A stretch of 24,517 nt of DNA from a virus. Location of the stretch: the IMG/VR virus record IMGVR_UViG_3300036715_000304, positions 1 to 24,517 of that record, one strand, 5' to 3'. The notes below the pieces were generated by a model. The model saw only the letters and a list, made by a program, of their open reading frames with translations, ran no database searches and was not told the DNA's origin. The translations under genes and the position numbers were made by a program. Shown piece after piece: positions 1-8,988 of this stretch. Position 1 is the first letter of the stretch. Each line of letters starts with the position of its first letter.

Positions 1-268
1 TGAGTTGCTTCACCGTATTAAACCAATCCTGCAAATTTGAAATCGCAATCAAGCGTTCCATAATCTCAGGTCGGCTACCAGATTTACGCACATAATCAGT
101 AGCTAACATGCTTGTCTGATTAATTGCAAAATCTTTAAAGTACCCTTCAAGAATCAATTTCTTAAAGTGTGGATTCTTTTCTAGCTCTTCTAGCGCATTA
201 GCTAGTTCAGCCCAATATGTATTTTCTTCTTCAAATAGCTTCATTTCATCTGGAGTTAGATTGCTCAT
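1..268 (-). CDS. Conserved phage protein of unknown function (C-terminus cut by window edge)
   Basis: An open frame starts at ATG 268-266 and remains open for 89 codons to the left edge, so the C-terminus is missing. The start is well supported by AGGAAGG about 7 bases upstream. The visible part is acidic and helix-rich, beginning MSNLTPDEMKLFEEE, with a central stretch EKNPHFKKLILEGYFKD that I recognise only as typical of small conserved proteins near phage head genes. I assign no function. It is the first gene after a near-consensus promoter and a leader hairpin, so it probably opens the operon that follows the ejection-type genes. It could be a scaffold or head accessory protein, but nothing visible proves that. 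Confidence 0.85.
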   Translation of the reverse strand, partial: MSNLTPDEMKLFEEENTYWAELANALEELEKNPHFKKLILEGYFKDFAINQTSMLATDYVRKSGSRPEIMERLIAISNLQDWFNTVKQL

Positions 269-287
269 TATGAGTTCCTTCCTAGTT

Positions 288-316
288 AGTAGTTACATGC
301 AATATCGCATACTACT
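288..316 (-). promoter_or_regulatory. 5' leader stem-loop
   Basis: AGTAGT (288-293) pairs with ACTACT (311-316), and ATGC (297-300) pairs with GCAT (307-310) around the 6-base loop AATATC. A 3-base bulge (TAC, 294-296) separates the two stems. The predicted transcription start of the promoter at 319-346 falls near base 312, so the hairpin would form at or very close to the 5' end of the transcript, just before the ribosome site at about 276-282. Such 5' hairpins can stabilise phage mRNAs. That role is inferred here. Confidence 0.5.
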
Positions 317-318
317 GG

Positions 319-346
319 ATTATACATAACTATATATTTATGTCAA
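319..346 (-). promoter_or_regulatory. Near-perfect sigma70 promoter
   Basis: On the minus strand TTGACA (346-341) is followed by a 16-base spacer and TATAAT (324-319). Both hexamers are exact consensus, and the spacer is one base below the optimum. It lies immediately after the stop codon of the transglycosylase gene (351) and points at the gene starting at 268. Host RNA polymerase should recognise it without phage factors, so that operon could be transcribed early or independently of the rest of the late genes. Confidence 0.8.
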
Positions 347-350
347 TACT

Positions 351-968
351 TTACGTAAAATAGTTATTTGTAAAAGCATTATTACTAAATGGATTACTCT
401 TCATAAACGCACTAACTGGAATATTTATTTTTAATGGTTGTTCTGTAGAAGTTGGTCTACTGCCAAGTAGTAATCTCTGTTGATTTAGCGTATCCTTATC
501 AGCCTTATATTGTGCTTCCAATTCTGCTCTATTATCTATCATAGCTGATACAGGCTGCATAGGTTTTGATTGAACAACTGGTTGTATCTGAGTACCTGTT
601 ACCTTACTTAGGTAATCTCTTGTCTCTTTCGGAGCTGCTTCCACTCCTTGCTTATCTAAATTACCTTGTCCCCAGTTGTATGCCATAACAGCTTTATTAA
701 CATCACCGTCATACTTACCTATCAACATAGACATATGCTTACCGTAAGCATCAGCACTTTTTACTGGATCAAACCTATCCTGCTCTGTATATCCATAATC
801 CTTCATAGTAGCCGGCATGAACTGCATCAATCCAGCAGCACCTGCAGGACTAACAGCATCAGCCCTACCACCAGACTCTGCATACATCTGATTAACAGCT
901 ATATCTGCTGGTATATTATACTTAGCTGCTGTATCCCTGATCAGCGATTCATACTGACTATTACTCAT
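351..968 (-). CDS. Virion-type lytic transglycosylase (SLT domain)
   Basis: The N-terminal 130 residues form a lysozyme-like SLT transglycosylase domain that cleaves the glycan strands of peptidoglycan. Visible motifs are AESGG with the likely catalytic Glu31, GAAGLMQFMPAT (residues 43-54) and AYNWGQGNL (near residue 97). There is no signal peptide or membrane segment. The remaining 75 residues are a polar tail ending in Asn- and Phe-rich sequence. It lies in the portal-proximal cluster rather than in the lysis cassette, so I infer a virion-borne enzyme that opens the cell wall during DNA ejection; the separate endolysin at 11375-11992 probably serves lysis. Its ATG directly follows the stop codon of a 10-codon ORF (TAAATG), and its ribosome site (AAGGG) lies inside that ORF, so translation is probably coupled. 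Family assignment is firm; virion location is inferred. Confidence 0.9.
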   Translation of the reverse strand: MSNSQYESLIRDTAAKYNIPADIAVNQMYAESGGRADAVSPAGAAGLMQFMPATMKDYGYTEQDRFDPVKSADAYGKHMSMLIGKYDGDVNKAVMAYNWGQGNLDKQGVEAAPKETRDYLSKVTGTQIQPVVQSKPMQPVSAMIDNRAELEAQYKADKDTLNQQRLLLGSRPTSTEQPLKINIPVSAFMKSNPFSNNAFTNNYFT

Positions 969-1001
969 TTACTTACCCTTAGGTTTTTTCTTACAAGCCA
1001 T
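969..1001 (-). CDS. 10-residue micro-ORF MACKKKPKGK (stand-alone copy)
   Basis: ATG 1001-999 to TAA 971-969 encodes MACKKKPKGK. An in-frame TAA directly precedes the ATG, so this is a complete separate ORF and not the end of a longer one. It has a good ribosome site (AAGGAG, about 6 bases upstream). The same peptide forms the C-terminus of the upstream 49-residue gene with four synonymous third-base differences and no amino-acid change. Its stop abuts the start of the transglycosylase, so it may also act as a translated leader. The function of the Cys/Lys-rich peptide is unknown. Confidence 0.6.
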   Translation of the reverse strand: MACKKKPKGK

Positions 1002-1039
1002 TTATATCTCCTTATATAACTATATTTAATATTAACTAC

Positions 1040-1189
1040 TTATTTACCTTTTGGTTTTTTCTTGCAAGCCATCTTTGCCTCCTTTTTTATAGTACCACCA
1101 TAACTATGTTTTATACTCTGTCCTTCACCAGTACCGTACATCTGTACACCAGCCTCAGTAGCAGCTTTACTAGCTAAACCCTCTTCCAT
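1040..1189 (-). CDS. 49-residue protein ending in MACKKKPKGK
   Basis: ATG 1189-1187 to TAA 1042-1040 encodes 49 residues. The start is supported by TAGGAG about 6 bases upstream, which also contains the stop codon of the preceding gene. The protein begins MEEGLASKAATEAG, carrying the GLAxKAA motif seen in neighbouring genes, and ends in MACKKKPKGK. A strong internal ribosome site (AAGGAGG) lies 5 bases before the in-frame ATG at 1072-1070, so the decapeptide could also be made on its own from this gene. It has no membrane segment. Function is unknown; position suggests a minor virion or ejection component. Confidence 0.75.
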   Translation of the reverse strand: MEEGLASKAATEAGVQMYGTGEGQSIKHSYGGTIKKEAKMACKKKPKGK

Positions 1190-1198
1190 ACCTAACTC

Positions 1199-1678
1199 CT
1201 AGAACGTATGACGTATCTGTGCCAAAGCGTAAGAAATTTTGTTATCAGGATCTAAGTTGACATTACCACTAACTGATGTATTAGGATTTATCTGGTAACC
1301 TGCGTAAGCTCCCTTATACCCATCATCACCAAAATAACCACCAACATAATGACCGTTATTGTGGTTATATGTAACATTGTTATTATTAGTTGACACACCA
1401 TAGGCAGGCAATTCCCTGATATCCCTAGATAGTTCTAAACTACCTCTACCTACAGGTACAGACATACCAGCACTTACTTCTTTAGTCTCTGGACGTAATC
1501 TATCAAGAGCATTATAGGATTCATTAAACCCATCAACACGACCAGTATATCCTCCTGCTAAGAAGGCAGCAAGTCCTGAAGGAGCACTGCTAAGTTTAGC
1601 ATCTATCCCTACATTCATACCATCATTTGTAGTTGAAAGCGCTCTAGGAGAGGCTGTAAAATTATCAATTAATGCCAT
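1199..1678 (-). CDS. Small virion protein with a beta-barrel-like C-terminal half (unknown)
   Basis: This 159-residue protein has no signal peptide. From about residue 65 it is rich in Gly, Tyr, Asn and alternating polar and non-polar residues in apparent hairpins (for example GSLELSRDIREL, HYVGGYFGDDGYKGAYAGYQ, TSVSGNVNL). It ends SYALAQIRHTF, a strand pattern with terminal Phe typical of outer-membrane barrel proteins. The Asn repeat NNNN (near residue 98) is probably a loop. It lies in the portal-to-transglycosylase cluster, so I infer a virion or ejection protein that may interact with the outer membrane. It could equally be a soluble beta-rich head or tail protein. A moderate ribosome site (AAGGTAAGG) supports the start at 1678. 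Confidence 0.75.
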   Translation of the reverse strand: MALIDNFTASPRALSTTNDGMNVGIDAKLSSAPSGLAAFLAGGYTGRVDGFNESYNALDRLRPETKEVSAGMSVPVGRGSLELSRDIRELPAYGVSTNNNNVTYNHNNGHYVGGYFGDDGYKGAYAGYQINPNTSVSGNVNLDPDNKISYALAQIRHTF

Positions 1679-1694
1679 ATTATACCTTACCTTA

Positions 1695-2459
1695 TTACTT
1701 AAACCATCCAGCTACTTTAGCGGCCAATCCTTCAGGAGGACCGTCATACACAGCAGTAGGTACAGCACCCTCTGGTAGTTCATTGTTCAACCACTGTTGA
1801 TGCATTCTATCAGTAGCTGCTTGATTATAACCCCAACCACTTTGTGCTGGTTGTTGTAGTTGTACCTGTGGTTGAGCAGCTGGCGCTTGTGCTTGACGAG
1901 AAGCCATCTCTTCTGTACCAAGTCTATGTATATCAGCTTCTTCTCTAGCTATCCACATATCTGCAGCTTTCTGTGTCTTAGGACCATCAATACCATCTAT
2001 TTTGAGATTAGTGCCTAGTCGTCTATTCAACATACGCTGTTTTTCCATAATATCTTCGTTAGGAGTTATTTTTATACTAGATGAAACGTATGTATTAGGA
2101 ACTACTACTTTATTAGACGAGGAATAGATATTAGCATTACCACCATCTAAATCCCAATTACTTGCTTTGTCAAATATATTTACTTCAGGAGTAGCTACAC
2201 GCATAGACTGCGGTACCATAGCACTTACTTTTTGTGCTGAATCTGGATAGCTATTCCACTCATTATTGAATGCAACATCTTGTTGATGCTTCAATAATCC
2301 TCTTTGTGCATCCATATACGCATCTTCAAACGACATCTTTGGTTGCATAGAAACTACAGGAGTAGATACTGTAGTATTAGGAATTACAGGAACAGGTACT
2401 ACATAGTTACCAGTTTTAGCAGCGTATCTTGTAATAGGTTGTGATCCAACTATACTCAT
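1695..2459 (-). CDS. Peptidoglycan-binding-domain protein, probable ejection/virion protein
   Basis: This 254-residue protein contains a compact match to the peptidoglycan-binding fold (PG_binding_1 type) at about residues 138-170: the helix QRMLNRRLG followed by the signature KIDGIDGPKTQKAADMW. Flanking regions are low-complexity and Gln/Pro/Ala-rich (about residues 185-210). The extreme C-terminus, EGLAAKVAGWFK, carries the GLAxKxA motif shared with neighbouring genes. There is no signal peptide. Its start lies 2 bases after the stop of the upstream 86-residue gene, with no strong ribosome site, which suggests translational coupling. With the nearby transglycosylase it may form a split cell-wall-penetration pair, one binding and one cutting. 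That pairing is inferred; the binding-domain signature is seen directly. Confidence 0.75.
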   Translation of the reverse strand: MSIVGSQPITRYAAKTGNYVVPVPVIPNTTVSTPVVSMQPKMSFEDAYMDAQRGLLKHQQDVAFNNEWNSYPDSAQKVSAMVPQSMRVATPEVNIFDKASNWDLDGGNANIYSSSNKVVVPNTYVSSSIKITPNEDIMEKQRMLNRRLGTNLKIDGIDGPKTQKAADMWIAREEADIHRLGTEEMASRQAQAPAAQPQVQLQQPAQSGWGYNQAATDRMHQQWLNNELPEGAVPTAVYDGPPEGLAAKVAGWFK

Positions 2460-2461
2460 AA

Positions 2462-2722
2462 TTACATTCCCATAGCAGCTTTACCTGCTAACCCTTGTGT
2501 AGGAACTGCCTGTGGTTGTTGTGGAGCTTGAGCCATCTGTTTAGCTAATGCGATAGCTTGTTCTATCAGTTGCGTAGGTACACCTGCTTCAGCCAGTTCT
2601 TCAGGAGTAATACCTTGCATCAACAACTGAGCTAGTTCTTCAACTGTAGGCATTTGCTGACCTATACCACCTGTACCCTCAGCTGCTGCTTTCTGTGCTA
2701 AACCCATTTCTTCTTCACCCAT
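2462..2722 (-). CDS. 86-residue portal-adjacent protein with GLAxKAA motif at both ends
   Basis: This small acidic, helical protein has a core of the form VEELAQLLMQGITPEELAEAGVP (residues 28-50), a short helix-turn-helix-like pattern common in small phage head proteins. The motif GLAxKAA occurs at residues 7-13 and again at 77-83, next to the end. A Gln/Pro linker (about residues 66-75) precedes the second copy. AAGGAG lies 7 bases before the ATG. It is the first gene after the portal. I do not recognise the family well enough to name a function; a minor head or portal-associated protein is the simplest reading. Confidence 0.75.
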   Translation of the reverse strand: MGEEEMGLAQKAAAEGTGGIGQQMPTVEELAQLLMQGITPEELAEAGVPTQLIEQAIALAKQMAQAPQQPQAVPTQGLAGKAAMGM

Positions 2723-2803
2723 GTCCTACTCCTTATCTAATTAACTGTGGCATCTGGTCTTGTATGTATAACTGTATCTGATACCTTTCGCCACATATTC
2801 TTA

Positions 2804-4786
2804 CTACTTTTTACCGTTCATAACGTCAAAAGATTTTTTATCTAACTCTGCTAGATATTCAGCATGTAACTTACTCATCTCATTATCATGTCTAGCTTGT
2901 AATTCTTGCATTCTTTCTCTAGCACTCACACCACTATCTCTCTCTAAGAACTCTAGATCTGATAAATCAGCATTACTATTTAAATTCCTAGCCTTAGCAG
3001 CTTCAACTTGTACTTTCTGTTGTTTCAACTGAGCACTAATTTCATACTCTTGCGCTTTAGCTATTCTATCAGTAACATCAGCTCTCATCAGGTCTATCTC
3101 AGCTTTCATTTTCTCCATAGCCAACTGCTTCATCTGTTGTTCCATAGGATCCTGTTGAGGTTCATATCGTCTCAATTTAGCAGCTTGATCAGGCAATCTA
3201 CTTAGTTCTAGAATCTGTGCCATCAACTCTTTCGTAATAGCAGGATCTAGTCCAACACCCAACGTTTGCAACAGAAAACTTAATTGTTGTACTTTAGCTG
3301 CATCATCTTCAGCAGTACTGATCGACAAATCAATATCTACACTACCATCCAAGTCATCCCTACGAACAGGTACAAACTCTTCATTAGTAATCCTAACTAC
3401 TTCTTCCTCTTCCAAGAACTCAGCATTGTATACCATCCACTTTCTCAGTAGTGGCTTAACTAGATTCTCAGAAATGTTCCTCACAATATTCATTCTACGT
3501 ACTGAGGTAGCATCCATAGCACCTCTAGCACCTGTAGCTGTCTGACCTAGACTAGCACCATTGATCCCACCACTGAAACTCTTAACACCAGTTAAACTCT
3601 CAATCTCATTGTTCATCAGACCAAGCATATCAAATGCAGAGCTAGGTAATGGGTTAAAACTACCTTGCCAGAAATCATCTCTAGTACCATTGTACTCAAA
3701 ACTCTTACCAGATAGATATTTCTTTCTATTCACTGGATCTAGTGCACCTTTCCTTACACCTACCTGACCATTGTTACTCTGTGCCATATTATCAATCAAA
3801 CCACGCATAATCGCAGTCTTAATCTTCTGGTTATCACCAATCAATTCAGCATTAGCTTCACCAAATATATGAAACGGTACAGCATTGAATGGTACTACAA
3901 GGAATGGTGGTTTACCATCAGGATATGGATTATCCTGCAACCGAATAATTGTGTCATTCACCCAAGCACATACAATAGGTTCAGCTACACCATCTTCATC
4001 TACATCATAGTTACCCCAGTACTCATGTACAATCACTTTCTTACGAGCATCATCTTTGAACTGGAACCTTGTTTGATCTTCTGGTCTATAGTCATAATCA
4101 TAGCTAGTTTGACCTAGACTCTGAGCTACTTTACTTAAATTCTTATATCTACCATCTTTCTTCAACGTAGATATATCTGTCTCATATCTATAGATGACGA
4201 ACTGGCACTTGTCCATGTCATCTTCACAAGTAGGATCGATGTAAATATCCTCATTCCTACAAACCTTCGCTGTAGGCTGGTTTCTTTTAACAACAGTCTG
4301 TTCTTCTTTTCTGGTAGTAATGAATTGATTACCATATTCATCAACTTCAACTACTTCTACCTCAGCCATTACCTTCTCTTCTTGGTAATCCCAGCCTGTC
4401 TGGATAATCGCAGTACCTTCTCTATCCAGTACTTTCACAGCCTTAGCCATGAAGTTATACCTATCAAATTTTCTACAGAACTGTGTATTCAGCAATAGTT
4501 CGTTCTGCCTAGCAGCATGTACATCTTCTGCTGTAATTGGTAAACACTTAACTACATCTGAACTACTTACAAACGGATCGATAATACTAGCATGTTGCCA
4601 TTCACTCTGCTTCTTAATGTCTCTACTGACAATAGCAGACTTACCAGCCTCTTCGTTGCCGTACTTCTCACCATTGTGCTGATTAATCCATTCCCTACGC
4701 TTCATATCCCACGTCTTTTTCGTAGGTGTAGCATTAGTTAGATCAGCCTTCAGAGATTGGAGTAGTTTTGCTTTATCAACTGCCAT
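2804..4786 (-). CDS. Portal protein
   Basis: At 660 residues this has the size and composition of a podovirus-type portal, the dodecameric ring at the capsid vertex through which DNA enters and leaves. The N-terminal half has the WxxxRxEWINQHNG opening followed by an alpha/beta wing and stem. A region around SGGINGASLGQTATGARGAM (about residues 410-430) resembles the conserved segment of P22/N4-type portals. The last 110 residues are a long charged coiled coil (from about QQMKQLAMEKMKAEI to KLHAEYLAELDKK), consistent with a barrel or tail-side extension. It starts after a weak AAGGT ribosome site. It is separated from the terminase by about 18 kb of tail, lysis and fibre genes and preceded by a 299-bp non-coding gap. 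I am sure it is a phage head-tail connector and fairly sure it is the portal. Confidence 0.85.
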   Translation of the reverse strand: MAVDKAKLLQSLKADLTNATPTKKTWDMKRREWINQHNGEKYGNEEAGKSAIVSRDIKKQSEWQHASIIDPFVSSSDVVKCLPITAEDVHAARQNELLLNTQFCRKFDRYNFMAKAVKVLDREGTAIIQTGWDYQEEKVMAEVEVVEVDEYGNQFITTRKEEQTVVKRNQPTAKVCRNEDIYIDPTCEDDMDKCQFVIYRYETDISTLKKDGRYKNLSKVAQSLGQTSYDYDYRPEDQTRFQFKDDARKKVIVHEYWGNYDVDEDGVAEPIVCAWVNDTIIRLQDNPYPDGKPPFLVVPFNAVPFHIFGEANAELIGDNQKIKTAIMRGLIDNMAQSNNGQVGVRKGALDPVNRKKYLSGKSFEYNGTRDDFWQGSFNPLPSSAFDMLGLMNNEIESLTGVKSFSGGINGASLGQTATGARGAMDATSVRRMNIVRNISENLVKPLLRKWMVYNAEFLEEEEVVRITNEEFVPVRRDDLDGSVDIDLSISTAEDDAAKVQQLSFLLQTLGVGLDPAITKELMAQILELSRLPDQAAKLRRYEPQQDPMEQQMKQLAMEKMKAEIDLMRADVTDRIAKAQEYEISAQLKQQKVQVEAAKARNLNSNADLSDLEFLERDSGVSARERMQELQARHDNEMSKLHAEYLAELDKKSFDVMNGKK

Positions 4787-7008: not shown

Positions 7009-8988
7009 TTATGCAAGTAATGCCTCGTACGCTGTCAAAGCCCTATCATATACACGGAAATTTGAAATATGCCCATTGAAGGTATGATATACGGTATCCG
7101 TTGATGTGTATGACCCTATCCTTACAGTGGAACAACTACTGTTACATGTAGATGTAAGTATATTATGTGTATTTGCCGCAAAACCGACTTGAATTCCATT
7201 CTCATACACATAGTGTCCCGCATTACTAGCCACTTGTGCTACTCTATATCTGGTTCTTGGTAGTGCCGCATTGAATGAAGCTGATATATCGGCCACGTTG
7301 CTCGCTATAGATGAGTAGCCACCCGTTGTCATAAAAACTAAACCGATATGGTCGGTTCCAGACGGATACATCGCCCAAGCCCATTGGTTGCCGCCATAAT
7401 CACCAAATACATCAATATCGCATAAAACGCTAATAGCGCCATTTACCCCAATATTTGGTATATTACCGGCTTGTGTAAAATTTAATATATCAGCTGTTCT
7501 AGTAACAGCACTAGCAACAGTAGGAATATATGATGTAGTAAAAGACCATGTTTCTAGTTGCGCCCCAAATACGTACACACCTGATGAGCCATCACCTGCA
7601 TATGCCCCAGTACCTAATCTGGTTGTTTGTAAATAAAAACTTGTAGATACCTTAGCTGCAGTTGTTGTTGTAGCGGAAACTCTAAACCAACCATTAGCCA
7701 GAGGAGTAATGGTAGAAGATATAGTAGATGTATTGCCTGGAGTAGCCGTTACAGCAGACAAATCAAAATCTGCTACTATAGGCGATGACGGAGTAGAAGA
7801 CTCGTAAGAATTGAGCCTAAACTTGGTGGATTCTGCGGCTTTAACAAAACAACTAAAGGTTAACGTAGAAGACGAAACTGTTAGTGTCTGCGAAATGTAG
7901 TGAAGATTAGTAGAGCTATCCTCTACAATTTTATCAGCCAAATTCGTACCGTACGGGTCAAGTGTAGCTGTGGTATTGGCTGATACTGTAGCGTTTGTTT
8001 GTCCCCAGACTGAATTATCGAATTGTTCACTATACGTTAATAAATTTGTACTGGAACCTTCATTCAAATAACCCTGCTTCTCGAATCGTGGAGTATCTAC
8101 TCCAGCAACTTGCAACATACCGTACCTATCAATATACGTAGCAGTAGATGATCTTGTAAATGTTACATTGCCAACACCTAATTTCATTGCTAGTGAATTT
8201 TTAAGAGGCAAGTCCAATAGTGGGGAATTAATATTACCGATAGCCTGCAATAAATCAGCGTTGTTTGCTTTCAAGTTATCCGCGGTTGTAACAAATGCTG
8301 TTGTTGCTACTTGGTTATTACTTGTACCTGGGGTGGCTGTTGTAGTGCTAATACTACCATTTACCTGTAGCTTGTCAACACCATTGTCCGTGTCGGTGCC
8401 AAGCAAGACATTCCCCGAATTTTTCGCTGAAACTACTTTGCGCCAGACAGACCAAGACCCGCCATCGTTGTTGCGCTCAAATATTTTACCGGCATTGGCA
8501 TCCCATCCGCGCGCTACTTGTGTGCCGCCTGGGTAATTGGGATCGCTATATCGTATAGTCTCTACCATCCACCAGCCAAGAGTAGGAGCATCTGTGGAAT
8601 CTTTAATCTGGCAAATAGACGAGTAACCTGGCTGTGTATTATTGAATAAGCCGGAACACGTACCACCACCACCATTACTAACCAATGACATCGAGAGATA
8701 ACCAGCAGACTGCACTAGCTTATTTGCATTGGTGACAAAAGCCGTGGTAGCCAATTGGGTTGTACTTGTACCAGCCGTAGCAGTTGGTGCTGTAGGTGTT
8801 CCAGTTAACGCAGGTGAAGCTAAAGGTGCCTTAGTTGGATCAACAATTTGTTTAACTGTACCATCTGAGTGTTTAACATAAGCCACCGCATCAGCAGTGT
8901 TAATTGCAAGTTCATTAGTTGCAAGACTAGCTGCTGCTGGTACTGTACCTGCTGTATTATTATGTTTTGGCAAAATAGGACTAGCCAT
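7009..8988 (-). CDS. Large multidomain tail fibre with C-terminal LamG/lectin-like domain
   Basis: This 659-residue fibre has clear modular order. An N-terminal attachment region of MASPILPKHNNTAGTVPAAA type with GTVKQI comes first. Next is the repeat ALTGTPTAPTATAGTSTTQL plus ATTAFV (about residues 58-85), then a knob-like region ending ERNNDGGSWSVWRKV (about 170-185). A second, shorter repeat GTSNNQVATTAFV follows. Then comes a beta-sandwich domain opening VTFTRSSTATYIDRYGMLQV and STNLLTYSEQFDNSVW, typical of spike-fibre sugar-binding domains. The end is a concanavalin/LamG-like domain, GHISNFRVYDRALTAYEALLA. Its ATG overlaps the stop of the upstream fibre (TAATG). It is probably a receptor-binding fibre. 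The middle part (8380-8540) is visibly more GC-rich, suggesting a swapped-in domain. Confidence 0.9.
   Translation of the reverse strand: MASPILPKHNNTAGTVPAAASLATNELAINTADAVAYVKHSDGTVKQIVDPTKAPLASPALTGTPTAPTATAGTSTTQLATTAFVTNANKLVQSAGYLSMSLVSNGGGGTCSGLFNNTQPGYSSICQIKDSTDAPTLGWWMVETIRYSDPNYPGGTQVARGWDANAGKIFERNNDGGSWSVWRKVVSAKNSGNVLLGTDTDNGVDKLQVNGSISTTTATPGTSNNQVATTAFVTTADNLKANNADLLQAIGNINSPLLDLPLKNSLAMKLGVGNVTFTRSSTATYIDRYGMLQVAGVDTPRFEKQGYLNEGSSTNLLTYSEQFDNSVWGQTNATVSANTTATLDPYGTNLADKIVEDSSTNLHYISQTLTVSSSTLTFSCFVKAAESTKFRLNSYESSTPSSPIVADFDLSAVTATPGNTSTISSTITPLANGWFRVSATTTTAAKVSTSFYLQTTRLGTGAYAGDGSSGVYVFGAQLETWSFTTSYIPTVASAVTRTADILNFTQAGNIPNIGVNGAISVLCDIDVFGDYGGNQWAWAMYPSGTDHIGLVFMTTGGYSSIASNVADISASFNAALPRTRYRVAQVASNAGHYVYENGIQVGFAANTHNILTSTCNSSCSTVRIGSYTSTDTVYHTFNGHISNFRVYDRALTAYEALLA

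Follow-up and report, generated by a model that had tools for sequence, protein, structure and literature searches.

Does a ten-codon reading frame, found twice in tandem in a viral genome fragment, encode a peptide that is made and kept by selection, and in what process would such a peptide act? The 24.5-kb viral fragment in question (IMG/VR record IMGVR_UViG_3300036715_000304, positions 1 to 24,517, here called the window) carries a 49-codon ORF and a 10-codon ORF about 1.6 kb downstream of the portal gene, followed by the gene for an SLT transglycosylase. Its portal is N4 gp59-like, sharing 63% identity with the corresponding protein of Alteromonas phage AD45-P1, which points to a probably N4-like (Schitoviridae-type) source. 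A preliminary description, made from the letters of the window alone, had noted that the decapeptide MACKKKPKGK is encoded twice and had suggested that the peptide itself is selected.

Window locus and nearest relatives

Both copies of the decapeptide were confirmed, each behind a strong ribosome site (Table 1), and they differ at four third codon positions, all silent, and at no amino acid. As described earlier, copy 1 is also the in-frame C-terminus of the 49-codon ORF, with an internal Shine-Dalgarno sequence of its own, and copy 2 is a complete, unannotated 10-codon gene. The 49-aa ORF had no match at E 0.001 among PHROG and Pfam profiles, small ORFs neighbouring MACK gave PHROG matches at noise level, and positions 1–3000 of the window, searched as DNA in phages, gave no match.

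Table 1. Coordinates of the features at the MACK locus of the window.
Feature	Position	Strand	Remarks
MACK micro-gene copy 2, MACKKKPKGK	969..1001	-	10 codons + TAA, free-standing complete ORF: ATG GCT TGT AAG AAA AAA CCT AAG GGT AAG TAA; sequence and family evidence
Shine-Dalgarno AAGGAG, copy 2	1008..1013	-	sequence
MACK micro-gene copy 1, MACKKKPKGK	1040..1072	-	doubles as C-terminal tail of the 49-aa ORF: ATG GCT TGC AAG AAA AAA CCA AAA GGT AAA TAA; sequence
Internal Shine-Dalgarno AAGGAGG, copy 1	1078..1084	-	5 nt ahead of copy 1 ATG; sequence
49-aa ORF MEEGLASKAATEAGVQMYGTGEGQSIKHSYGGTIKKEAKMACKKKPKGK	1040..1189	-	small basic family: MEQGLA..MVYGxGEGQNTKHYYAG + Lys/Cys-rich tail
Shine-Dalgarno AGGAG, 49-aa ORF	1196..1200	-	sequence
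AAGGG within copy 2	976..980	-	7 nt ahead of transglycosylase ATG; possible ribosome site
SLT-domain transglycosylase, 205 aa	351..968	-	PF01464 E=3e-24; PHROG matches: lysis, internal virion protein
Portal protein (SU10_portal / N4 gp59-like), neighbourhood anchor	2804..4786	-	PF23899 E=2e-143

The tandem pair is not conserved, since each of the two nearest relatives has one copy. One of them (L059) has MACK solely as the tail of the 49-mer, with a weaker AAGGA where window copy 1 has its internal AAGGAGG, and directly followed by a lysozyme-like gene. The other (L003) has it solely free-standing, as MACKKKPKVNK, where deletion of a single A (1 nt) relative to window copy 1 changes only the last residues to VNK. 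In both, a different, lysozyme-like gene takes the transglycosylase's place. The tandem arrangement stressed in the preliminary description is thus incidental. Frameshift or absence of a copy in relatives, which had been named there as grounds for rejecting selection, does occur in these two, and is outweighed by the family-wide evidence given below. Window copy 2 differs at 1 base from the L059 copy and at 4 from window copy 1, so that the two copies of the window seem to stem from separate allelic lineages; judged from the sequences, copy 2 may have arrived together with the transglycosylase.

The motif GLA(S/A/Q/G)K was seen near the ends of three adjacent small proteins of the window (2722-2462, 2459-1695 and 1189-1040, all on the - strand), and also in the IKPE family described below.

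Sequence searches and family definition

The transglycosylase, used as query, gave no related loci, and the portal was therefore used instead, which returned 80 related loci. The MACK family was defined as short Lys-rich ORFs that open with ATG-GCN-TGY-AAR behind a Shine-Dalgarno sequence, contain no acidic residue and have Lys as their last residue, a definition that fits window copies 1 and 2. A strict scan was run to completion over 2.9 million viral contigs with the pattern AGGAG + ATG-GCN-TGY-AAR-NNN-AAR...AAR-stop, allowing a spacing of 4–9 nt. Lys at positions 4 and 6 and the AAR that precedes the stop are thus imposed by the pattern, whereas the reading frame is left free.

Census and composition

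ATG-GCN-TGY-AAR occurred at 10 distinct sites in the window locus and the portal loci, the window's two among them, and nine of these open 8–15-codon Lys-rich ORFs with a ribosome site (MACKPKKK, MACKSKGKKGK and MACKTKKKGTGKKGK among them); the tenth, in L041, does not. An unbiased census of K/R-rich Shine-Dalgarno micro-ORFs across the 80 related loci (~950 kb) yielded 17 distinct ORFs, six of which begin with MACK, and the same census on five codon-block shuffles yielded no MACK. A first scan of viral contigs gave at least 39 distinct MACK micro-ORFs with a ribosome site among the matches listed. The strict scan matched 72 contigs, with a short in-frame ORF of 8–18 codons in 71, representing 55 distinct peptides, all Lys-terminated. 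Residues at the free positions were K (48%), G (18%), P (12%), T (7%), S (6%) and R (3%), with zero Asp/Glu. Third-position codon choice varies over genomes of 28–63% GC while the peptide type is kept. A degenerate DNA pattern for the longer start MACKKKPKG was found in one viral contig.

Controls and evidence of selection

The permuted order MCAK matched no contig in the viral scan. Exchange of Cys for Ser (MASK, AGY codons) matched 51 contigs, of which 49 have longer genes of ordinary make-up and two a short ORF. Short ORFs were therefore found in 71/72 MACK vs 2/51 MASK contigs (Fisher P ~1e-30); both sets include repeated families, so that contigs are not fully independent, and the contrast holds regardless. 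The AGGAG-ATG spacing was 6–7 nt in 51 of the 71 MACK ORFs, within the 4–9 nt allowed. Nearest-neighbour links of similar ORFs, scored from codon 5 onward, gave 77 silent vs 95 replacement changes, where 24% silent is expected (P ~3e-9), and the test is conservative because links between probably unrelated members were kept.

The single-residue swap and the permuted control are decisive against chance. The proposal that the peptide is the unit of selection is borne out by the silent-site excess, both in the window pair (4 silent, 0 replacement) and in the family, together with these controls. MACK is very probably translated and selected as a peptide, translation itself being deduced from the sequence.

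Distribution among phages

MACK was present in 7 of 54 related portal loci. A free MACK ORF was not found in the stretches read of Pollock, AD45-P1, LUZ7, LIT1, EcP1, RpoP-V12, CRP-143 and the pelagiphages. CRP-143 and Javan253, which among cultured phages come closest to two of the MACK-bearing contigs, are without a MACK ORF in the stretch read, and one contig (L356), compared with phages by Megablast, gave no match. MACK is regarded as accessory because its presence is patchy and the cultured relatives checked are without a free MACK ORF.

Genomic neighbourhood

The nearest large upstream genes of the strict set matched the portal families phrog_156 (9/39) and phrog_1216 (7/39) and the head-tail adaptor phrog_332 (5/39), sets that may overlap; further upstream matches were to major head and minor head families. 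Nearest large downstream genes matched the N4-type phrog_2120 and scaffold and major head/capsid families. Among genes more than 4 kb off in the same contigs, phrog_156 and phrog_1216 were each found in 1/46 (9/39 near vs 1/46 far, Fisher P 0.005). Downstream genes and their distances differ widely between loci, and some MACK members lie outside head modules. The preliminary description had suggested looking in related phages for similar micro-ORFs upstream of the transglycosylase. MACK ORFs do recur, but the transglycosylase is an incidental neighbour and not their conserved partner, being replaced in L003 and L059 as above; across phages it is portal, connector, scaffold and capsid genes that most often lie beside MACK.

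Two further observations concern the surroundings. A family of 60–67 aa (IKPENKGKFTxYCK..GVTxxCIxEGLASK) lies directly or shortly downstream of MACK in L036, L044, L050, L058 and L196, and a member tested against Pfam gave no match. In L340, long stretches without called ORFs flank the MACK ORF, which a recoded stop codon might explain.

Proposed function

We propose that MACK is a cationic micropeptide, translated late, that helps to assemble heads or to package DNA, a role to which we assign a probability of about 0.4. The peptide would be made late, alongside the head proteins. Removal of Met would leave an Ala-Cys-Lys-rich cation, whose charge could hold it to DNA, RNA or acidic surfaces while heads are assembled or genomes packaged, and the lone Cys near the N-terminus might serve dimerisation, metal binding or contact with a partner thiol. 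Where a copy fused to the 49-aa protein and a free copy occur together, they would provide one cationic module in two forms. In support of a head role, the unit recurs in many unrelated phages with a well-spaced ribosome site, its codons drift while the peptide is kept, and head genes often adjoin it. A purely virion role leaves the members away from head genes and the few bacterial copies unexplained.

A wider reading, tentative and somewhat unlikely, is that MACK peptides form a widespread class of genetically encoded polycations that has so far gone unrecognised, their genes being some of the shortest conserved coding genes of viruses. They would serve phage head assembly or genome condensation, with the Ala-Cys N-terminus making a specific contact, and would also be chromosomally encoded in some bacteria.

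Alternative explanations

The peptide may instead be directed at the host, acting on host RNA, ribosome, a nuclease or a regulator, with the head-gene setting reflecting late transcription only. The phage copies outside head modules agree with this, as do cellular copies in a few bacterial genomes. Bacterial and archaeal genomes totalling 257 Gb yielded only 13 matches to the strict pattern, and MACK is therefore concentrated in viruses. Some of these matches are clear. Two Goldiibacteriota MAGs have MACKKK(A/V)KKKKK followed by a terminator, and an Endomicrobiales MAG (L321, near 6726) has MACKKKAKKKKKKK and then a second Lys-rich micro-ORF, MAKKKKAKKKKKKK, a tandem pair as in the window. In a deltaproteobacterial group, three genomes from a single phylum (L318, L329, L448) have MACKTK...KKK conserved directly ahead of tRNA-Asn(gtt), and a fourth MACK ORF is found in a further genome. 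These bacterial copies could be cellular genes or mobile-element relics. Portal, connector and scaffold genes, however, adjoin MACK in unrelated phages, and we consider a host target unlikely.

A translational control element, in which the micro-ORF draws in ribosomes and tunes the next gene's expression by coupling, reinitiation or lysine/proline-dependent pausing while the peptide is inert, is quite improbable. At the window such control would be well placed, as the TAA of copy 2 directly abuts the transglycosylase ATG (968) and the AAGGG inside copy 2 is at the right distance; in several other loci the MACK stop and the next start abut or overlap. Against this, L090, L120 and L173 have a hairpin and T-run immediately 3' of MACK, with the next called gene on the opposite strand. 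An automatic terminator test missed L090 and added L112 and L379, the latter also with the next called gene on the opposite strand, and in this test terminator-like hairpins followed 7/93 MACK ends vs 2.5% of long-ORF ends. With such hairpins after MACK in at least four viral contigs, MACK is not simply the next gene's leader, and a regulated gene downstream is no constant feature, as L090, L120, L173 and L379 show. The very variable downstream genes and distances also speak against control, as does the Ala-Cys kept after Met while codons vary, the Cys-to-Ser pattern losing the micro-ORF class. A leader-only role is not general, and control of next-gene translation is an alternative for some loci.

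It is very improbable that MACK is what remains of the Lys/Cys tail of the 49-aa family after decay or detachment, retained through a chance duplication. This family (33–57 aa) was found in ~20–25 of 54 N4-like portal loci, members including the window ORF and those of L012, L013, L016-L019, L023, L025, L029, L033, L044, L050 and L055, and an unannotated member is present in the cultured phage AD45-P1 (L331, about 8743-8910). A composite family query gave no match in phages, a null that is uninformative because the query was a construct whose basic tail may have been lost to masking. Many members end in Lys/Cys-rich tails, and in the window and L059 the MACK sequence is itself such a tail. Most MACK genes in other phages are, however, free-standing, with silent-site drift and well-placed ribosome sites.

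A chance or compositional artefact of A-rich sequence, conceivable in that lysine is encoded by A-rich codons and strings resembling a Shine-Dalgarno sequence form close to AAR/GAR codons, is refuted by the shuffles (0), MCAK (0) and MASK (nearly all long genes), and the family persists at 54–63% GC.

Comparison with known systems

Protein J of phiX174 is a small basic DNA-binding capsid protein that acts in genome packaging. MACK, with its putative packaging role, resembles J in being very small and Lys/Arg-rich, whereas J is longer and arginine-rich, has an aromatic C-terminus and comes from single-stranded DNA phages. Pelagiphage proteins encoded between scaffold and capsid (HTVC168P gp29, MYGKKKAKGKKMLKGG...), annotated as hypothetical in cultured phages, are likewise small, lysine-rich and in the head-gene block, but are 33–35 aa long, start with MYGK or MYKS and have no Met-Ala-Cys-Lys signature. 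Another class of micro-ORF (12–15 codons; L215, L256, L268, L281, L296) opens with MYGK or MYPK, continues with Lys and Gly, and resembles the start of these longer proteins.

Leader-peptide and coupling micro-ORFs are short, with a strong ribosome site, and some run directly up to the next gene. MACK shares these features, occasional abutment included, but at some loci it is the final gene ahead of a terminator, and its amino-acid signature does not depend on the gene that follows. The small phage genes reported in the catalogue of Fremin, Bhatt and Kyrpides 2022 (cited in PMC11323111) are, like MACK, unannotated.

In the openly readable literature searched, the peptide strings tested returned unrelated papers only, none in a phage context. 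Phages are already known to encode small basic proteins; against that literature, the MACK signature and size range appear to be new. The family could stay unseen because 8–18 codons fall below the cut-offs of the usual gene finders and protein-family libraries; the decapeptide is itself shorter than the 20-residue minimum of the profile searches used here. With a simple signature, clean controls and genes that are easily deleted or recoded, a direct test of whether MACK is made and needed is practical. If MACK does act in head assembly or packaging, present models of how phages build their heads would be missing a part.
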